Source of the DNA: Symbiobacterium thermophilum IAM 14863
GTDB taxonomy: Bacteria > Bacillota > Sulfobacillia > Symbiobacteriales > Symbiobacteriaceae
Direction: 5' to 3'
DNA length: 64,000 nt
Assembly (NCBI RefSeq): GCF_000009905.1
Contig: NC_006177.1
Location: forward strand, 620,001 to 684,000
The notes under the pieces are model-generated. The model saw only the letters and a list, made by a program, of their open reading frames with translations, ran no database searches and had not been told where the DNA came from. Positions 1,134-9,647 of the stretch are shown here, one piece after another. Positions within the stretch are counted from its first letter, which is position 1. The number at the start of each line of letters is the position of its first letter. The position numbers and the translations under genes were made by a program.

Positions 1134-1736
1134 ATGACCCAGCCTGCCGGCTTCGCACCGGTACTGTTCAAGGCCCGGAAGGATCCTGAGATCGTGGAGG
1201 TTCCCGACACCTGGTGCCTGACCCTGAGCGGTGTCGGCGCGCCCGAGAGCCCGGCGTTTCAGCAGGCGGTCGAGGCGCTCTACGGACTGGCTTACACCCT
1301 GAAGTTCCAGCAGAAGGCCGCCGGGCAGGACTTCAAGGTCCCGCCCCTGGAGGGGCTGTGGTGGTCCGAGCCACCGGAGGCGTTCGCCCGGACGCCGCGG
1401 GAAGAATGGCGCTGGCAGCTGCTGATCCGGATGCCTGAGGGGATCACCGCGGAACAGGTGGCCGCCACCCGCGGCCAGGCGGCGGCCAAGAAGAAGAACC
1501 CACGGATCCTGGACGTGGCGTTCGAGCGCTTCGCCGGGGGTACGGCCGCGCAGGTGCTCCACGTGGGCCCCTTCTCCGAAGAGGGACCGGTGATCGAGCA
1601 GCTGCACGCCTTCATCGCCGCGCAGGGATACCGGCTCCGGGGCCGCCACCACGAGGTCTACCTCTCCGACTTCCGGCGCACCCCGCCGGAGAAGCTGAAG
1701 ACCATCCTGCGGCAACCGGTGGAGCCTGCCACCTAG
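1134..1736 (+). CDS. GyrI-like small-molecule-binding domain protein
   Basis: A 200-residue protein of the GyrI-like/COG4832 type: the order 'Y(G)LAYTLKF' near residue 50, 'PLEGLWW' near 75, 'WRWQLLIRMPE' near 95 and 'VLHVGPFSEEGPVIEQLHAFI' near 150 is the usual pattern of the stand-alone members. These fold as a tandem SHS2 domain and are thought to bind hydrophobic small molecules; the physiological ligand is not known. There is no DNA-binding domain. The ATG at 1134 is preceded by GGAAGGGGG. The stop overlaps the stop of the convergent SDR gene by 4 bp. Confidence 0.8.
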   Translation: MTQPAGFAPVLFKARKDPEIVEVPDTWCLTLSGVGAPESPAFQQAVEALYGLAYTLKFQQKAAGQDFKVPPLEGLWWSEPPEAFARTPREEWRWQLLIRMPEGITAEQVAATRGQAAAKKKNPRILDVAFERFAGGTAAQVLHVGPFSEEGPVIEQLHAFIAAQGYRLRGRHHEVYLSDFRRTPPEKLKTILRQPVEPAT

Positions 1737-2479
1737 TTCATCACCCGGCCGCCGTCCACCACGACCGTCTGCCCGGTGACGAACGCCGCTGCCGGCGAGA
1801 GCAGCCAGGCCACGACCTCGGCCACCTCGCCGAAGGTGCCCAGGCGGCGGAGGGGGGTCTGGGCCTTCATCGCCTCCAGCGCCGGCGTCGGCAGCGCTCG
1901 GGCGAGGGGCGAGTCGATGGGCCCCGGCGCCACGCAGTTGACGCGGATGCCCAGCGGCCCCCACTCTCGGGCGGCCGACCGGGTGAGCCCTACCAGCCCC
2001 GCCTTCGCCGCCGCATAGGCGGGCCCGAACGCACCGCCGTTGAAGCTGACCACCGAGCCGACGTTGACCACGGCCGGCTCCCGCCCTTCCCGCAAGAGAG
2101 GCAGGGCCGCCCGCATCACGTGGAAGGGGCCGCTGAGGTCGGCCGCCAGCACGGCGGCCCATTGCTCGGGGGTGACCTGGTCCCAGGGGAGCACCGGCGC
2201 CACCCCGGCGTTGTTGACCAGTAGATCCAACCCGCCCCACGCGTCCCGCACCAGCTCAACCACGGACTCGGCCTGGCCGGGCACGGCGAGGTCGGCCCGG
2301 AGCACCAGCGCCCGGCGGCCGGAGGCATTCACCGCCTTCGCCGTTTCCTCCGCGCCGGCCTTGTCCCGGTGGTAGTGCACGGCCACGTCGGCCCCGGCCT
2401 GGGCCAGGCGGCGGGCCACCGCTGCCCCCAGCCCCTTGGAGGCCCCGGTCACCAGCGCCCGCTTGCCGCTCAGATCCAC
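1733..2479 (-). CDS. Short-chain dehydrogenase/reductase (FabG-like), last gene of the chorismate-linked operon
   Basis: 248 residues, classical SDR length. TGASKGLG nucleotide-binding motif near residue 12, NNAG near 90, catalytic YAAAK near 155 and the C-terminal 'FVTGQTVVVDGG' of FabG-type enzymes are all visible. It reduces a carbonyl or oxidises an alcohol with NAD(P)H/NAD(P). The start is GTG at 2479, with GGGAGG 12 bp upstream. It overlaps the end of the reductase gene by 10 bp, so it is very likely translated coupled to it. In this operon it could reduce an aldehyde made by the upstream reductase, or act like EntA on a dihydrodiol; the sequence does not decide between these. Confidence 0.85.
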   Translation of the reverse strand: MDLSGKRALVTGASKGLGAAVARRLAQAGADVAVHYHRDKAGAEETAKAVNASGRRALVLRADLAVPGQAESVVELVRDAWGGLDLLVNNAGVAPVLPWDQVTPEQWAAVLAADLSGPFHVMRAALPLLREGREPAVVNVGSVVSFNGGAFGPAYAAAKAGLVGLTRSAAREWGPLGIRVNCVAPGPIDSPLARALPTPALEAMKAQTPLRRLGTFGEVAEVVAWLLSPAAAFVTGQTVVVDGGRVMN

Positions 2480-3903
2480 GGGATCACCGCCTCCCGATAT
2501 GCCTTGGCCGTGAACAGGAAGTCCGCCAGCCGGCCCTTGTGCGGCGCCCCGGGCTCCGTGTGCCAGGGCGGGACCGGGCCGACGAACAGCTTTTGAATCG
2601 AAGGTTCCCTGAGGCAGCGCCGGACGAGCGCTGCCTCTTTCGTCATCAGCGTGACCGCCAGCGAGCCGCGCAGCAGCGGCAGCGGGTCTGCACCGGCGGG
2701 CAGCCGTAGGCCGGTCGCCCACGGGGCCGGAATCTCCGCGCCGAAACGGGGATCGGCGGGATCGACGCCCAGCACCAGCGCGGGGCGCACAAAGGTGAGG
2801 CCGTCCACCTCCACGGCTTCGCCCGGGGTCAGCCGGGCCGCCGCCGGGTCCTTCCAGGCGGGGACGCGCGCAGCCGGGTCCAGGGGGTCCAGGAGCGGCA
2901 ACCGGGCCAGCCGTTCCGCCACCGCTTCCAGGAGGCCCGGGGCGTCACCCCTGAGCAGCACGGCGCTGGCGCAGGTGCACTTGCGCCCGCCGTCGTGCAG
3001 GATGCAGTCCACCAGGAACGTCACAGGGTCTTCGGCACTGGTGGAAGAGCTGGCCGGCTTGTGGGTGCGGAGGCCGGACGGCTGGCCGTTCGGTTCCGGG
3101 GTCGGGTCACCCGGCGCTGCCCCGACCGCGTCCGTGTCCACCAGCACCTTGGACCGGCCCGGGCCGTTGAAGAGCACCCGGGGATCCCGGCCCAGCAGCG
3201 ATTCCAGCGCAGGCCCGCCATACGCCACCGTCCGGTCGCAGTGTTCCACCAGGGCGGGCACCAGGTCGTGCCCCCCGGGCAACAGGGCGATCCGCTCGGC
3301 CGGGAAACCCGCCTCCCGGAGTGCGAGCAGAACCCGCCACGGTGTGAAGGGGTCGTCGGCGCCGGGCCGGACGGCGACCACCCAGCCCATCGCCAGCGCC
3401 AGCACCCAGGTCAGGTGCACCGCCGGGTGGTTGGACGGGGCGACGAAGCCCAGCACCCGGCCCACCGGCGCCCAACCGCAGGACTTGCCGGGAGCGGGCT
3501 CGATCCGGCCGGTGAGGAAGGGCTCCGGCGTGCCGCCCGGCGCCTGCCAGGTCAGGGCTTCTCGCACCTGCGCCATGCCCCGGGCCAGTTCGGCCAGGGC
3601 GCGTCGGCTGTCGGTGAGGGGGGCGCCGGTGGCCAGCGTGACCAGCCGGGCGTGCTCCTCCGGGGAGCAGCCCCCGAGTTCGGCTGCGTCCAGCAGACGG
3701 CCGGCCGCGGCGATTCGGTCCCAGAGGGCGGTGAGGTCGGCTTCCGGCTCCGCCGCCGCCCGCAGCTCGGCCACCGCCCGGTGGACCAGCAGGGCCGGCG
3801 CGACGGCCACCTTCGCCAGGGGCTCGCCCCGGTAGTCCCGGAGCAGCCGCACGTCCAGGCTGGTCCGCTCCCGGCCGCCCCGCCAGATGGGGATCTCCCG
3901 CAC
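2470..3903 (-). CDS. Acylating aldehyde dehydrogenase / acyl reductase (LuxC/ALDH superfamily)
   Basis: 477 residues of the aldehyde-dehydrogenase superfamily. Visible features: 'GFVAPSNHP' near 152-160 (NFP-like Asn loop), the helical nucleotide-binding part to about 240, then 'FNGPGRSKVLVD' near 245 and a catalytic cysteine in GGRKCTCAS (Cys309). The usual ELGGK glutamate segment is replaced by a glycine-rich one, as in CoA-acylating or acyl-reducing members, so I infer reduction of an activated acyl group to an aldehyde. Residues about 261-292 are a Pro/Ser/Gly-rich insert between that segment and the cysteine. Start GTG 3903 lies 1 bp after the stop of the adenylating ligase and 10 bp of its end overlap the SDR. 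Substrate unknown. Confidence 0.72.
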   Translation of the reverse strand: MREIPIWRGGRERTSLDVRLLRDYRGEPLAKVAVAPALLVHRAVAELRAAAEPEADLTALWDRIAAAGRLLDAAELGGCSPEEHARLVTLATGAPLTDSRRALAELARGMAQVREALTWQAPGGTPEPFLTGRIEPAPGKSCGWAPVGRVLGFVAPSNHPAVHLTWVLALAMGWVVAVRPGADDPFTPWRVLLALREAGFPAERIALLPGGHDLVPALVEHCDRTVAYGGPALESLLGRDPRVLFNGPGRSKVLVDTDAVGAAPGDPTPEPNGQPSGLRTHKPASSSTSAEDPVTFLVDCILHDGGRKCTCASAVLLRGDAPGLLEAVAERLARLPLLDPLDPAARVPAWKDPAAARLTPGEAVEVDGLTFVRPALVLGVDPADPRFGAEIPAPWATGLRLPAGADPLPLLRGSLAVTLMTKEAALVRRCLREPSIQKLFVGPVPPWHTEPGAPHKGRLADFLFTAKAYREAVIPWI

Positions 3904-3904
3904 C

Positions 3905-5056
3905 TCAGTACACCCCCTCGACTCGGGCGCCGCCCCCGTCCAGGGGTGCAACCTCCGCCAGCTCGTCCCACAGCTCCGACCCGGGCCATGGGACGCGGAC
4001 CGCCCGATCCCGCTCCAGGTGCCAGGGGAGGAACAGCTCCCGGGTCAGCAGGCTGATGCGGACCTGGCCGGCCTCGCCGGGAGCGACGCGGCGGCTCGGG
4101 TCCTGCGGGTCGACCACCCGGACCACCGCCGCCGGCCCCGGCGGGGAGAAGATGCAGCGGTGGGTGTCGCCCTCCCGGCGGGGACGCTGGCAGGCGATGC
4201 CCATCAGCGTGTTGCCGTACCAGCCCACGAACCGCGCCTCCGGCAGCAGCTCCTCCTCCAGCAGCCGCAGCCCTTCGGCGGAAAGCGAGGTGCCGAACCA
4301 GATGATGCCCTCGACCCTCCCCGCCAGGGCGGCGTACGCCTCCGGGTGCTCGCAGAGGGCCTGCAGGAGGGGCGGGGTGGTGGAGAGTACCCGGACCGGC
4401 TGGGTCCTGAGCACCGCCAGGGCCTGCTCTACCAGGTGGGCGGTGTAGCGACGGGCTTCGTCGGCGCGGCCCTCCCGGTAGAGCCGCTTCACCCAGCGCG
4501 GGTCCAGGTCGACGGTATGGTAGAGGAAGCCCCGGAGCCGGGCGAGCCGGGCCACGTTGGTGCCCACCAGGTGGGGGCCCGTGGGCCCCAGGTGGAGCCA
4601 GGCCGGGTAGGCGTCCCCTCCCCCTGTGTGGGCCCGGCCCTCCGTCGTGTCCGTGCCGCCGTGCGCCGGGGCGATCGCACCGGTCGGGCCTCCCGGTCGT
4701 GTCCGTGCTTCGCGCCGCGGGAAGCCGTGCTCGTCCAGCATGCGGTCGACCCGCTGGATCCCCCTGGTGCGCTCCTGCGCGTCCACGATCCGTACGGGCG
4801 GCCCCGTGGTGCCGCCGGTCTCCCACACGTCAAAGGGCTCGCTGCACCCCCGCGGGATGAGGTCGCCGACGGGGACGGACCGCCACTCCCCGGCCACCGC
4901 GGGGAAGCGGGCCAGGTCGTCGAAGCCCCGCACCTCCGCGACGGGGTCGAAGCCCAGATCGGCCGCCTTGCGCAGCCAGTACGGCGAGCCGGTGTCCGGG
5001 CTGAAGTGCCAGCGCACGATGTCGCGCACGTGCGCGTCCAGTTCCGCCCGCGTCAT
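3905..5056 (-). CDS. Acyl/aryl-adenylating enzyme, LuxE/PaaK-like
   Basis: 383 residues. 'WETGGTTGPPVRIVD' near residue 80 is the AMP-binding P-loop; 'GIIWFGTSLSAEGLRLLEEEL' and 'GWYGNTLMG' are the later core motifs of LuxE/phenylacetate-CoA-ligase-like enzymes. It is shorter than ordinary acyl-CoA ligases, as LuxE-like acyl-protein synthetases are. It should activate a carboxylic acid as the adenylate for the adjoining reductase. Residues about 117-148 form a low-complexity insert (Gly/Thr/Ala/Arg-rich) with no counterpart expected in the family. The start is ATG 5056 in a TGATG overlap with the isochorismate-synthase-like gene, behind GAGGAGGTGA. A GTG one codon earlier is an alternative. 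Confidence 0.75.
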   Translation of the reverse strand: MTRAELDAHVRDIVRWHFSPDTGSPYWLRKAADLGFDPVAEVRGFDDLARFPAVAGEWRSVPVGDLIPRGCSEPFDVWETGGTTGPPVRIVDAQERTRGIQRVDRMLDEHGFPRREARTRPGGPTGAIAPAHGGTDTTEGRAHTGGGDAYPAWLHLGPTGPHLVGTNVARLARLRGFLYHTVDLDPRWVKRLYREGRADEARRYTAHLVEQALAVLRTQPVRVLSTTPPLLQALCEHPEAYAALAGRVEGIIWFGTSLSAEGLRLLEEELLPEARFVGWYGNTLMGIACQRPRREGDTHRCIFSPPGPAAVVRVVDPQDPSRRVAPGEAGQVRISLLTRELFLPWHLERDRAVRVPWPGSELWDELAEVAPLDGGGARVEGVY

Positions 5057-6531
5057 CACGTTGGGTCACCTCCTCGGACGGCGTCCTCGCCCCGCATCAG
5101 CTCCTCCGCCGGGGGCAGCGCGGCGCCGGCCGCGGCCAGGGCCCGTTCCGCCTTGGCCATGCACTCCCGCCATTCGGCCGCGGGGTCGCTGCCCGGCACC
5201 AGACCGGCGCCGGCCCGGACCAGGACGGTGCCGTCCCGCAGGGCCAGCGAGCGGATGGTGAGCCAGAGCTGCAGTCCGCCGCCGGGCAGTACCGCGCCCA
5301 CGGCGCCGGCGTACCAGCCCCGCGGCACAGGTTCCAACCGATCGATCAGCGCCCGGGCCGCCTCCCGGGGAATCCCGCCCACCGTGCCGGCCGGGAAGCA
5401 GGCGGCGACCAGATCGCCGGGGCCCAGGTCGGGCCGGAGCGTCCCCGACAGCCGTGACGCCAGGTGGACCAGGCCCGGGTGGCGCTCCAGCTCCATGAAG
5501 GCTTCCACCGCGACGCTCCCCGGTAGGCAGACCGCCTCCAGGTCCCGGCGGGCCTGTTCCACGGCCACCGCATGCTCCTCCCGGTCCTTCGGGCTGGCGG
5601 CGAGTTCCGACGCGCGCTCGGCGGGCCGGGTGCCGGCCAGCAGGTGCATGTGGGCGCGGCCGGCTTCCAGAAAGACCAGCGGCTCGGGGGAGATGCCCAC
5701 CAGGGTCTCGCCACCCGCGCCGACCCGTAGGAGGAACCCCAGCCCGGGCGGGCTGCCGGCAGTCAGCGGGCGGTAGATGGCCGCGGGGGGCAGGGGGCAG
5801 GGGGCGGCGAAGGGCACCGAGAGGATCACCTTGGTCAGCCGGCCTTCGGCCATGGCCGTCAGCGCCTCCCGCACCGCGGCCGCGTACGCCGGGTACGGCC
5901 ACAGCGGCACGGCCCGGTGCGGGGGCGCATGTGCCGATGCCCGCTCGCCGGGTCTTCCGGAGCCGCCCTGGCCGGCGGCAAGACCGACCTCGCCTTCGTC
6001 GGCGCCACTCTTCCTTGCGTCGGCGCCGCTCTTGCGCACGTTGGCGCCGTTCTCGCCCGTGTTGCCGCCGCTCTTACCCGCGGTGCCGCCGCTCTCGCCT
6101 GCGTTGGTACTGCTCTCGCTTGCGTCAGCGCCGCCCTCACCTGCGCAGGCGCCGCTTCGCACCGGCGGGCAGCCGCGGCCGGGGACGGCGGGCAGGCGCC
6201 CCCGCACCCAGAGCTCGCCCGCCTCCCGGTCGAACAGCGCGGCCGAGCCCGGTACCCAGAAGCGACCGGTTCCGTCCCAGTCCAGCCGGCCCACCGCCGC
6301 AGCCAGCAGCGGCGGGGCCTGCGGCGGCAGGGGGGTCCTGTCCGCCGCCGCAGCCGCCTCCGCCACCGTGCGGGCGCGGGCCTCCGGGGCCCAGGCCACC
6401 AGGGCCACCCTGCGGCCTTCCCAGGTGATGCCGTCCAGCAGCGCCACCGGCCCGGAGCCCAGGGCCGCGGCCAGGTCCGCGGGCTCCCAGGGCGGAAGGG
6501 GCAGGCGGCGGACGGACTCAGCCGTCGCCAT
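5056..6531 (-). CDS. Isochorismate-synthase-like chorismate-utilising enzyme with a heptapeptide-repeat insert
   Basis: 491 residues, chorismate-binding fold. The conserved half begins near 215 with 'GRLTKVILS' (Lys234, the position of the general-base lysine of isochorismate synthases), then 'HLLAGTRPAERASE', 'HPGLVHLASRLSGTLRPD', 'GGIPREAARALIDRLEPV', 'RGWYAGAVGAV' and 'RAGAGLVPGSDPAAEWREC'. Anthranilate synthases have Gln at the lysine position, so isochorismate (or salicylate) formation from chorismate is the better reading. No menaquinone genes are adjacent. Residues about 128-190 are a tandem heptapeptide insert. ATG 6531 overlaps the cyclase stop by 14 bp and has GGAAGGGGG upstream. 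Confidence 0.78.
   Translation of the reverse strand: MATAESVRRLPLPPWEPADLAAALGSGPVALLDGITWEGRRVALVAWAPEARARTVAEAAAAADRTPLPPQAPPLLAAAVGRLDWDGTGRFWVPGSAALFDREAGELWVRGRLPAVPGRGCPPVRSGACAGEGGADASESSTNAGESGGTAGKSGGNTGENGANVRKSGADARKSGADEGEVGLAAGQGGSGRPGERASAHAPPHRAVPLWPYPAYAAAVREALTAMAEGRLTKVILSVPFAAPCPLPPAAIYRPLTAGSPPGLGFLLRVGAGGETLVGISPEPLVFLEAGRAHMHLLAGTRPAERASELAASPKDREEHAVAVEQARRDLEAVCLPGSVAVEAFMELERHPGLVHLASRLSGTLRPDLGPGDLVAACFPAGTVGGIPREAARALIDRLEPVPRGWYAGAVGAVLPGGGLQLWLTIRSLALRDGTVLVRAGAGLVPGSDPAAEWRECMAKAERALAAAGAALPPAEELMRGEDAVRGGDPT
5962..6150 (-). repeat. Degenerate heptapeptide (21-bp) coding repeat inside the isochorismate-synthase-like gene
   Basis: Residues about 128-190 read as successive 7-residue units such as NAGESGG, TAGKSGG, NTGENGA, NVRKSGA, DARKSGA and DEGEVGL. 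At DNA level this is a degenerate 21-bp tandem repeat. It sits between the N-terminal part and the catalytic half and keeps the frame, so the enzyme is probably intact with a flexible, hydrophilic linker. Confidence 0.8.
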
Positions 6532-7201
6532 ACGGGACGCCCCCTTCCACGGCCAGGGCCCGGACCGGCGCCGCTTCCGCGCCTTCGACGAGCATGGGCG
6601 CGGCCATCAGCCAGACGATGGGCCCCCGCAGGGCCTTCAGGTTGCGGAGGTACTCCAGGATAGGTATGTCGGCTTCCAGCAGCCGGCGGTGCACGGGGAA
6701 GTCCCGGTCGCCGGGCTCCTCGGTCAGGAAGTCCAGCCCCACCAGCGCAGCCCCCTGCTCGACGCACCAGTCGGCTGCGCTGGGGGCCAGGTACGGGGGC
6801 TTCTGCCAGAAGTCCGGGTCGCCCCAGTGGCGGTCCACGTAGTCCGTGCGCAGCAGGAGACGCAGGCCGGGGCGCATCCGCCCGCCGGCTGCCGCCTCCA
6901 GGTCGTCGGCGGTGACGGGCTCGTACAGGCCGCGGTGGGTGAGATCCAGCACCAGCGCCGGCCCGATGAACCGGTCCGGCTCCAGATCGCTCACGTTCTT
7001 GCCGCCGGGCACGAAGTGGCTCGGGGCGTCGACGTGGGTGGCGTTGTGGGGATTGAACACGAACTGGCTGAAGCGCCGGCCGTGGCCCGTGGGATCCGTC
7101 TCGGGCGTCATGAGCGGGCGGATCTCCACCTGGCTGTACCAGGCGGTCCCGTAGGCCGGCATGCCGTGGCTGTAGCCCAGCGTCAGGTCGATGATGCGCA
7201 G
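6518..7201 (-). CDS. Cyclase/kynurenine-formamidase-like metal hydrolase, first gene of the operon
   Basis: About 227 residues. RIIDLTLGYSHGMP at the N-terminus and HNATHVDAPSHF near residue 60 are the signature of the cyclase family PF04199 (HxTHxDxPxH binds the metal); 'GLDFLTEEPGDRDFPVHRRLL' is the usual C-terminal half. Members include kynurenine formamidase and polyketide cyclases; the substrate here is unknown. AAGGAGGTG lies at 7208-7216. A GTG is embedded in that site (7210), while an in-frame CTG at 7201 stands 8 bp after GGAGG and directly before RIIDLT, so I place the start at CTG 7201. It heads a five-gene operon whose cistrons all touch or overlap. Confidence 0.75.
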   Translation of the reverse strand: MRIIDLTLGYSHGMPAYGTAWYSQVEIRPLMTPETDPTGHGRRFSQFVFNPHNATHVDAPSHFVPGGKNVSDLEPDRFIGPALVLDLTHRGLYEPVTADDLEAAAGGRMRPGLRLLLRTDYVDRHWGDPDFWQKPPYLAPSAADWCVEQGAALVGLDFLTEEPGDRDFPVHRRLLEADIPILEYLRNLKALRGPIVWLMAAPMLVEGAEAAPVRALAVEGGVPYGDG

Positions 7202-7323
7202 GGGGCCCACCTCCTTGGCGTTTGGCTGCTGTCCGGGACGGCCCGTGTGGCCGCTCGCCATACTATGCAGGTGCGCCGGCCCCGGTCCCGTGCATATCCA
7301 TGTCGGGGGAGGGGGGCGGCACT

Positions 7324-7791
7324 GTGGCCGTGGAGGTGGGGCTTCTGACCGTGGCGGAGTGGCCCTGGCTGGTGTCGCGGTCGGCGGCGACGGCCTGGGC
7401 CCACGTGGATCCCGCCCTGCGGGACCGGGTGAACCCGCAGGCGGTGGCCGCTCGGGTGGAGCAGAACCTGCGCGCGTTGCTGACCAGGCCCGGCAGCGCC
7501 GCACTGGTGGCGCGCGCGGGCGGCGCCGCCGCCGGCTACCTGGTGGTGGCGCTGGTGCCCGACGAGCTGACGGGGCTGCCCGTCGGTCTTTTCTATGACA
7601 TTTTCGTAGAACCGGCGTACCGGGGCACCGGCGTGAGCCACCGCCTCACCGCAGCCGGCGAGGCCCACTGCCGGGCCTGGGGCGCGAGCCTTGTCCGCCG
7701 GTACATCGACCCCGGCAACGAGCCCTCGCTCCGGCACGCGTTGCGGGAGGGCTGCCGGATCGACCGGCTTTCGCTGGTGAAGGTGCTGTGA
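7324..7791 (+). CDS. GNAT-family N-acetyltransferase
   Basis: 155 residues. The acetyl-CoA-binding core is visible as 'LVARAGGAAAGYLVVALV' (beta strand), 'GLFYDIFVEPAYRGTGVSHRL' (motif A, with RGTG for the R/Q-x-x-G-x-G/A loop) and 'WGASLVRRYIDPGNEPSLRH' (motif B). It transfers an acetyl group to an amine; the acceptor is unknown. GTG 7324 follows a GGGGGAGGGGGG ribosome site; an ATG at 7300 precedes that site and is less likely. It is divergent from the cyclase operon and may share its regulatory region. Confidence 0.75.
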   Translation: MAVEVGLLTVAEWPWLVSRSAATAWAHVDPALRDRVNPQAVAARVEQNLRALLTRPGSAALVARAGGAAAGYLVVALVPDELTGLPVGLFYDIFVEPAYRGTGVSHRLTAAGEAHCRAWGASLVRRYIDPGNEPSLRHALREGCRIDRLSLVKVL

Positions 7792-7885: not shown

Positions 7886-8890
7886 GTGCTCGACCATCGT
7901 GCCGCGGGGCTGACCGATGAACAGGCCCTCGCGATCTACCGCTGGATGCTCCTCACCCGGCGGCTGGACGAACGGCTCGGGGTCCTGCAGCGGAGCGGCG
8001 CCATCCCCCTGGCCCTGTCCAGCCGGGGGCACGAGGCGGCCCAGGTGGGGGCCGCCCTGGCGTTCGCGCGGGGGAAGGACTGGTGGTTCCCCTACTACCG
8101 CGACCTGGGGGCCGTGCTGGTCGCCGGCACGACGCCGCTGGACGTGATGTTGTCTTCCTTCGGCCGGGCGGCGGACCCGTCGTCGGGCGGTCGGCAGACG
8201 CCGTACAACTGGGGCGACCGGCGGCTGAACATCGTCGCGCGGTCGGCGCCGGTCGGAGTGCAGATCCCCCAGGCGGTGGGGGTGGCGCAGGCGGCGGTCC
8301 GCAGGGGCGATCCGATCGTGGTGTACTGCAGCTTCGGCGAGGGCGCCGCGTCCCAGGGCGACTTCCACGAGGGGCTGAACTGGGCGGCGTTGCACCGCCT
8401 GCCCGTCATCTTTTTCTGCCAGAACAACGGCTGGGCGATCTCGGTGCCGCTCAGCCGCCAGGTGGCCGGGGGCAGCGTCGCCGCGCGGGCGGCGGGGTAC
8501 GGCATCGAGGGCGTCAGCCTCGACGGGACGGATCCGTTCGCGGTCCACGCCGCGGTCCGGCGGGCGGTGGTGCGGGCGCGCGCCGGCGGCGGGCCGGCCC
8601 TGATCGAGGCCCGGGTGCACAGGCTCGACCCCCACACCTGCGACGACAACCACGCGGCGTACCGGACCGGGGCGGAGCTCAGGGCGGCGCGGGAGGCTGA
8701 CCCGCTGCCCGCCGTGGCAGACTATCTGCGGCGGCGGGGGCTGCTCACGGACGCTGCGGCCGCGGCGGTGGAGCGGGCCGTCGCGGCGGAGATCGACGCT
8801 GCGGAGGCCGCGGCGCGGGCGGCCCGCCCGCCGGCCGGCGAGGAGGCGCTGGGGCCGGTCACAGCGCCACCTGCTCCAGCGCCTCCTTGA
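7886..8890 (+). CDS. 2-oxoacid dehydrogenase E1 component, alpha subunit (thiamine-PP dependent)
   Basis: 334 residues. '[14 protein letters not shown]', '[13 protein letters not shown]', '[12 protein letters not shown]' and the thiamine-diphosphate motif from [14 protein letters not shown] to FFCQNN (residues about 150-185; GEG for the usual GDG) identify the alpha subunit of pyruvate/branched-chain 2-oxoacid dehydrogenase E1. [10 protein letters not shown] near 250 resembles the phosphorylation-loop region. These enzymes normally need an E1-beta subunit, lipoylated E2 and E3. No E1-beta or E3 is in this window. It starts with GTG 7886 after GAAGGGGGCG. Its 3' end overlaps the convergent E2-core gene by 32 bp. 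Confidence 0.85.
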
Positions 8891-9647
8891 CGGTCGCGAG
8901 GAAGCCGATCATCTCCGCCCCGTCCACCGCCCGGTGGTCCGCGGTGAGCGCGAGGTACATCATCGGTCGGATCGCGAGCTGGTCGTCCCCGACGACGACC
9001 GGTCGCTTCTGGATGGCCTCGAACGCCAGGATCCCGACGTTGGGCGGCTGGATGATGGGCGTGCCGAACAGGGTGGCCCCGTAGCGGCCCGTGTTGGTGA
9101 TGACGAACGTGTGGCCCGAGAGCTCGTGCGGCGAGAGCAGCCCGGCCCGGGCCTTCTGGGTCTGCAGGTGGATCGCCCGGGCCAGGTCCCAGAAGCCCAT
9201 CCGCTCGGCCCCCGGGACGACGGGCAGCAGGACGCCCCCTGGCACCGCCGTGGCGATGCCCAGGTTGATGTACCGCGGGATGACGAACCCCTGGGGGGTG
9301 AGCATGGCGTTCATGATCGGCCACGCCTTCAGGGCCCGGACGGTCGCGGCGGCGAAAAACGGCAGGTAGGTCAGCCGGATGCCCAGGTGCCGCTCGGCCA
9401 GCGGCTTCAGCGACTCGCGCACCGAGATGAGCCCCGTCGCGTCGACCTCGGCCACCACGGTGACCGGGGCGGTGGTCCGCTGGGCCTGCTCCAGGTTGAG
9501 CATGGAGACCCGGCGGATGTGGCTGAGCGGCAGGGTGACGACCGGGGGGAACGGCGGGCCGCCCATGGCCAGGGGGTTGTCGGGCGTGCCGCCGGGCAGC
9601 AGGAGGCCGGCCGGCGCGCCGGGGGGCGGGCTCGGGAACAGCTGCAC
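8859..9647 (-). CDS. Stand-alone 2-oxoacid dehydrogenase E2 catalytic core (no lipoyl domain)
   Basis: 262 residues comprising only the acyltransferase core. The family features '[17 protein letters not shown]', '[21 protein letters not shown]', '[26 protein letters not shown]' and the catalytic [11 protein letters not shown] (His and Asp of HxxxD) are present. The N-terminal lipoyl domain and peripheral-subunit-binding domain of normal E2 (usually about 150-200 more residues) are absent; instead about 40 Pro/Gly-rich residues precede the core. It therefore could not work as a usual swinging-arm E2 alone. GTG 9647 has GGGAGGAG upstream. Confidence 0.83.

Follow-up and report, generated by a model that had tools for sequence, protein, structure and literature searches.

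A five-gene operon of Symbiobacterium thermophilum IAM 14863, located in the 64,000-nucleotide stretch of DNA analysed here (the window; positions 620,001 to 684,000 of the single-contig genome), appears on balance to encode a short pathway converting chorismate into a small aromatic aldehyde (or alcohol) that bears an ortho-hydroxyl group, a reading that we hold with slightly more confidence than doubt. The genes present, their conservation, their families and their active-site residues were established directly; every substrate, the order of the steps and the product are inferred. The chorismate-utilising enzyme (PF00425) would add water at C2 of chorismate, generating isochorismate, or salicylate if pyruvate is also eliminated; a cyclase-fold protein might then remove the enolpyruvyl group, or otherwise convert isochorismate to an aryl (or dihydroaryl) acid. 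This acid would be activated as acyl adenylate by an EhpF-type enzyme, and the acyl group would be transferred to the cysteine of an EhpG-type partner and converted to the aldehyde; finally, a FabG-like SDR may reduce the aldehyde to the alcohol or adjust a ring oxygen. Salicylaldehyde, salicyl alcohol or a dihydroxy analogue would be the candidate products. No description of this gene combination or of its relatives was found in the open-access literature searched, and the route matches no pathway described there; the component families are known. If the reading is correct, isochorismate would feed an aldehyde route distinct from siderophore and menaquinone synthesis.

Organization and conservation of the operon

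A preliminary description of this DNA had indicated an operon of five genes coupled by overlaps or 1-bp gaps, and all five open reading frames were confirmed on the minus strand between positions 7201 and 1733; its overall interpretation held in part, as discussed below. The order is cyclase, chorismate enzyme, AMP-binding protein, ALDH-like protein and SDR. In this order, the first two genes overlap by 14 bp and the second and third by 4 bp; 1 bp separates the third from the fourth, and the last two overlap by 10 bp. The features are:

6518..7201, minus strand: metal-dependent 'cyclase'/kynurenine-formamidase-fold hydrolase (CYC; PF04199, Pfam 109 bits), 227 aa
5056..6531, minus strand: chorismate-utilising enzyme (PF00425, Pfam 227.9 bits) with an isochorismate/salicylate-synthase-type active-site Lys, 491 aa
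5997..6156, minus strand: 21-bp repeat array inside the chorismate-enzyme gene, giving a linker of 7-residue repeats (TRF, 7.6 copies)
3905..5059, minus strand: predicted EhpF-type adenylating enzyme for aryl carboxylate activation (EhpF homology), 384 aa
2470..3903, minus strand: predicted EhpG-type ALDH-fold acyl reductase (PF00171; homology with the ehp-cluster ALDH), 477 aa
1733..2479, minus strand: FabG-like SDR (PF13561/PF00106; PRK12826.1-2), 248 aa

The cyclase reading frame extends from a CTG at 7201 to 6518 and is preceded by AAGGAGGTGGG; the CTG is the probable start codon. No promoter-like sites were found, and terminator-like sites are no commoner than expected by chance. G+C content is 74-76% in the operon region versus 63-68% across 10 to 26 kb of the window. 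The repeat linker of the chorismate enzyme is absent in the related loci L018 and L020. Another repeat, with a 117-bp unit present in 4.6 copies of 90% identity, is found at 375-914 of the window, upstream of a GyrI-like gene.

The gene set, which the preliminary description had proposed to look for in other genomes, was found in identical order in four members of the same order of bacteria (G000, G001, G002 and G007) and split across two contigs in another genome (G003). In G019, belonging to another family of the class, the cyclase, chorismate enzyme, adenylating enzyme and reductase are encoded on two broken contigs, where a DAHP synthase gene adjoins the cyclase gene and no SDR is visible. 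The pN/pS values of all five genes against L018, L021 and L020 range from 0.16 to 0.54, the cyclase having the lowest against the two nearest relatives; judged by these ratios, all five genes are under purifying selection. Since the order is conserved in other genomes and pN/pS is low, the set is more than a chance association; the same features, together with the absence of the operon from three genomes sampled within the order (G004, G005 and G006), indicate that it is old, maintained and patchy. A profile search with the adenylating enzyme in the 154 genomes of the class, as sampled, returned seven strong matches; the seventh, in G239, has another context, without cyclase or chorismate enzyme. 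Elsewhere in the phylum, matches to the cyclase at E 1e-25 occur in 92 of 398 genomes; most score much lower, at 138 bits or less, and the strongest (G417, 221 bits) is encoded among genes of other metabolism, where the rest of the operon is missing. An intermediate cyclase from Chloroflexota (G615) has no gene set within 1.5 kb on either side; a distant cluster was found in one of 400 Chloroflexota genomes, while Actinomycetota were sampled through plasmid records only.

Three genes next to the operon are also of relevance:

7222..7791, plus strand: divergent GNAT acyltransferase (PF00583), a conserved neighbour
7886..8890, plus strand: E1-alpha-like thiamine enzyme subunit (PF00676), between GNAT and E2
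8859..9647, minus strand: stand-alone E2 acyltransferase domain (PF00198) without lipoyl domain

The GNAT gene adjoins the cyclase gene in G000, G001, G002, G003 and G007 and lies downstream of the ALDH gene in G019; it is possibly part of the pathway. Short E2 genes occur within about 5 kb of the operon in G000, G001, G002, G007 and G019, their products having no lipoyl domain or a lipoyl-like domain missing the ETDK-type lysine motif; in G004-G006, which do not have the operon, the E2 genes seen all had longer open frames. A role of the short E2 in the pathway is possible and is taken as a lead only, because the copies of G007 and G019 are not close orthologues of the window E2 (37-38%). At 8859-9647 of the window, 12973-13890 of L020 and 4320-5285 of L024, the stand-alone E2 domains are catalytic domains of the 2-oxoacid dehydrogenase type; they lack a functional lipoyl domain but carry the motif HRAVDG (HRALDG in L020). 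The E1-alpha-like gene, adjacent to the operon in Symbiobacterium genomes only, shows a weak association with it. This gene overlaps the convergent E2 gene by 32 bp and its product has a GEG instead of a GDG thiamine-diphosphate motif; no E1-beta was recognised among the neighbouring reading frames.

The chorismate-utilising enzyme and the predicted reductase pair

The PF00425 enzyme, called isochorismate-synthase-like in the preliminary description, scores below the cut-off of the isochorismate synthase model TIGR00543 (147.6 bits vs 224.75). The stretch LTKVIL aligns with VDKVVL/LDKVVL of isochorismate synthases (EntC/DhbC/MenF), with Lys at the position where TrpE has Gln, and this Lys is present in all six members of the enzyme's clade. 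The Lys of this site activates water in EntC, MenF and MbtI; for MbtI, activation of the attacking water is ascribed to Lys205 (PMC8008425). At a second site the enzyme has Thr, as do salicylate synthases, TrpE and PhzE, whereas all eight isochorismate synthases compared have Ala. The two residues point to water addition at C2; they do not separate isochorismate from salicylate. In a tree of 26 proteins the enzyme belongs to a clade of six (98/94), composed of members of its order and G019, while the eight isochorismate synthases (99/99) and two salicylate synthases (100/97) form groups apart; deeper branching is weak. A joint clade with isochorismate synthases received a p of 0.12 in the AU test and one with salicylate synthases a p of 0.055, neither union being firmly rejected.

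The same residues bear on an alternative to which we give appreciable, though minority, weight: the PF00425 enzyme may be a one-step salicylate synthase, the reductase pair then producing salicylaldehyde and the SDR salicyl alcohol, with the cyclase acting later or hydrolysing a by-product. Indeed, the Lys and Thr pair is common to the window enzyme and to both salicylate synthases compared, and Thr361 of MbtI contacts ligands. However, the Thr is not exclusive to these enzymes, being found in TrpE and PhzE as well, the AU value for the joint clade is 0.055, the score with the salicylate synthase model TIGR03494 is 126.8 bits against a cut-off of 325.15, and the cyclase, the most conserved gene of the set, would be left without a clear role.

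Whichever acid is formed, the route from isochorismate that we favour continues with the adenylating enzyme and the ALDH-like reductase. The names LuxE-like and LuxC-like, previously given to them, have to be abandoned: neither protein matches Pfam LuxE or LuxC, the only Pfam matches being AMP-binding (PF00501, weak, 26.6 bits vs a cut-off of 29.9) and Aldedh, and membership of the LuxE/LuxC fatty acid reductases was rejected. Conversely, the claim that a chorismate-linked acid is activated and reduced gained support from the homology with EhpF and EhpG and from the reductase active site. EhpF is the only PDB match of the adenylating enzyme (2.8e-71 with a family profile, positions 6-363 of 363); no NCBIfam model matched the protein, which is 36% identical to its homologue in the phenazine (ehp) cluster of an E. 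coli plasmid. The reductase is 27-29% identical to the ehp-cluster ALDH. When aligned with the latter and with PuuC, it retains the catalytic Cys (GGRKCTC), while the deacylating Glu (LEAGGKS in PuuC) is replaced in all seven proteins compared, by Asn (window and L020), Arg (L019, L029 and L030) or another residue; the retention of Cys and the loss of Glu fit an acyl-enzyme whose acyl group is reduced instead of being released by hydrolysis. Judged from their sequences, the two proteins would together form an aryl-carboxylate reductase of the EhpF/EhpG type, as found in phenazine clusters.

Homologous pairs neighbour PhzE in Burkholderia and in the E. coli plasmid, and in Streptomyces goshikiensis the neighbours are DAHP synthase and PabB; thus, the pair recurs in clusters making chorismate-derived aryl acids. 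In grixazone synthesis, GriC and GriD convert an aryl acid to the aldehyde as a two-protein system, by adenylation and then reduction (PMC10179220). In the S. goshikiensis plasmid (L030, 14953-21038) the pair is found with DAHP synthase and aminodeoxychorismate synthase, and these genes probably represent a p-aminobenzoate-derived aldehyde route. In plasmid p1 of Streptomyces angustmyceticus (L033, 8826-15047), an 'arylcarboxylate reductase' subunit of this EhpF/EhpG-type family lies beside genes for mqnE, mqnC and 1,4-dihydroxy-6-naphthoate synthase, perhaps for a secondary metabolite from the futalosine route.

The cyclase-fold protein, the SDR and the weight of the evidence

The preliminary description gave the cyclase no role in the pathway, yet no other gene of the set is so well conserved. 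The metal motif HxxxHxDxxxH and a later His and Glu are present (H52, H56, D58, H62, H171 and E183), and all are invariant across the cyclase alignment except D58, which is Glu in L029 only. A fold model of moderate confidence (pLDDT 76, pTM 0.76) matches 8hmo, a metal-dependent hydrolase of Bacillus smithii, as well as isatin hydrolases and kynurenine formamidases (KynB). The activities known in PF04199 are the hydrolysis of amides, lactones and esters; the family is not known to hydrolyse enol ethers. In all sets found, namely those of Symbiobacteriales, G019, Tengunoibacter and two Streptomyces plasmids, the cyclase is accompanied by a chorismate enzyme or by DAHP synthase. The set of Streptomyces NBC_01450 consists of just four genes, for isochorismate synthase, DAHP synthase, the cyclase and DUF362, with neither reductase genes nor such an SDR within 18 kb, suggesting that the cyclase is tied to isochorismate rather than to reduction. 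No PchB-type lyase exceeded the cut-off in the seven genomes or records tested. By guilt by association, we propose that the cyclase processes isochorismate.

The four genes of the NBC_01450 plasmid (L060, 11814-19919) are adjoined by LarC, LarB and LarE, which are nickel-pincer cofactor genes; DUF362 and LarA are in a common Pfam clan (PMC11770544). The same DUF362 protein (57% identical) and a LarC gene are found in Tengunoibacter, while no LarC was found in the window genome or in G019. One possibility is that DUF362 acts in isochorismate metabolism as a nickel-pincer enzyme.

The SDR just exceeds the cut-off of PRK12826.1-2, a broad FabG subfamily (222.9 vs 222 bits), carries the Ser-Tyr-Lys residues and shares 43-49% identity with its counterparts in two distant clusters (Tengunoibacter and Streptomyces NBC_00998). 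Its identity is 39% to FabG, 33% to EntA and 25% to EhpK, FabG being nearer, so that identification as EntA is disfavoured; the EntA-like acidic residue after the second strand is missing, which suggests the use of NADPH. Reduction of the aldehyde to the alcohol is a plausible function. An improbable alternative would assign the SDR to a catechol route, where the cyclase acts as isochorismatase to give 2,3-dihydro-2,3-dihydroxybenzoate, the SDR acts as EntA to give 2,3-dihydroxybenzoate and the pair forms 2,3-dihydroxybenzaldehyde. The ICS-type Lys, the position of the SDR as last gene and the absence of an isochorismatase gene from the operon agree with this scheme, but the resemblance of the SDR to FabG rather than EntA, its missing acidic residue and the NBC_01450 set, which combines isochorismate synthase and cyclase without such an SDR, argue against it.

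It is very unlikely that the chorismate enzyme is the missing PabB of folate synthesis or an ordinary MenF, sharing the operon with unrelated catabolic enzymes: the genome has only two PF00425 genes, the one of the operon (C1:625059-626531) and a TrpE-like one (C1:1553128-1553886), with no separate PabB for folate visible, and TrpE and some PabB models give the enzyme higher scores than the isochorismate synthase model does, but PabB is rejected by the active-site residues (LLAGT instead of PIKGT, without the PabB lysine, and the ICS/SS Lys in place), MenF by the absence of any MenD over cut-off in the genome and the presence of the futalosine enzymes MqnE and MqnC over cut-off, and both by a gene locked with the other four across families, its slot being filled elsewhere by a true isochorismate synthase. 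The earlier statement that this is not a menaquinone locus was therefore right; the case that would have told against its reading, a sole menF of the genome among genes of a characterised unrelated pathway, is not the one found, menaquinone being made via the futalosine route.

The pathway from chorismate to an aromatic aldehyde through isochorismate is thus supported by the conserved gene order and purifying selection, the ICS/SS Lys, the homology with EhpF, a reductase that keeps the Cys and has lost the deacylating Glu, the homologous pairs beside PhzE or beside PabB and DAHP synthase, the precedent of GriC/GriD and the lack of a detected PchB-type lyase. Further support comes from Tengunoibacter and a Streptomyces plasmid, where a true isochorismate synthase and a dedicated DAHP synthase accompany the other four genes. 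It is weakened by the fact that no operon enzyme has a known substrate, by the position of the chorismate enzyme below the ICS cut-off and outside the ICS clade, although a joint clade is not rejected by the AU test (p 0.12), by a cyclase family not known for enol-ether hydrolysis, by a generic FabG-like SDR with 25% identity to EhpK, and by the G019 set, where no SDR is visible on broken contigs. More speculatively, and with doubts that outweigh our confidence, the cyclase could represent a new kind of metal-dependent enzyme that processes isochorismate and has no relation to isochorismatase or PchB, its Symbiobacteriales partner could be an isochorismate synthase of second origin, derived from TrpE-like ancestors by a Gln-to-Lys change in the active site, and the set could stand at the centre of a family of aldehyde metabolites, not yet described, that are made from isochorismate in at least three phyla. 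If true, isochorismate synthase would possibly have arisen twice and the cyclase fold would have a new chemistry.

Related clusters and known systems

The cluster of Tengunoibacter tsumagoiensis (L019/L079) starts with a SARP regulator, DAHP synthase, the cyclase, DUF362, the adenylating enzyme, the reductase, the SDR, ATP-grasp and MDR proteins, and continues with CarB and CarA, a carbamoyltransferase and a true isochorismate synthase. A plasmid of Streptomyces sp. NBC_00998 (L029) has the same core together with isochorismate synthase, carbamoyltransferase, ATP-grasp, MDR and MATE proteins; the Streptomyces and Tengunoibacter isochorismate synthases pass TIGR00543. Both sets have the appearance of complete biosynthetic clusters, and the window operon would be a smaller relative of them. 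Their cyclase, adenylating enzyme, ALDH-like reductase and SDR share 34-50% identity with those of the operon and are accompanied by isochorismate synthase; unlike the operon, they add DAHP synthase, an ATP-grasp ligase, carbamoyltransferase, MDR and MATE, and their isochorismate synthase belongs to the true ICS clade.

Among characterised systems, the D-alanylgriseoluteate/phenazine clusters resemble the operon in having adjacent AMP-binding and ALDH-fold proteins, EhpF and EhpG (with EhpK), beside a chorismate-utilising enzyme. There, however, this enzyme is PhzE, accompanied by PhzD, PhzF and PhzG, and the acid is a phenazine, none of which applies to the window operon; moreover, EhpK and the window SDR share only 25% identity. 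GriC and GriD, set beside the window pair by their description (PMC10179220), likewise reduce an aryl acid to its aldehyde with two proteins, but their substrate, 3-amino-4-hydroxybenzoate, is not derived from chorismate, unlike the acid proposed here. Finally, the LuxE/LuxC fatty-acid reductase of the luciferase system shares the logic of adenylation followed by acyl transfer to a cysteine of the reductase, whereas the window proteins fall outside the Pfam LuxE and LuxC families.
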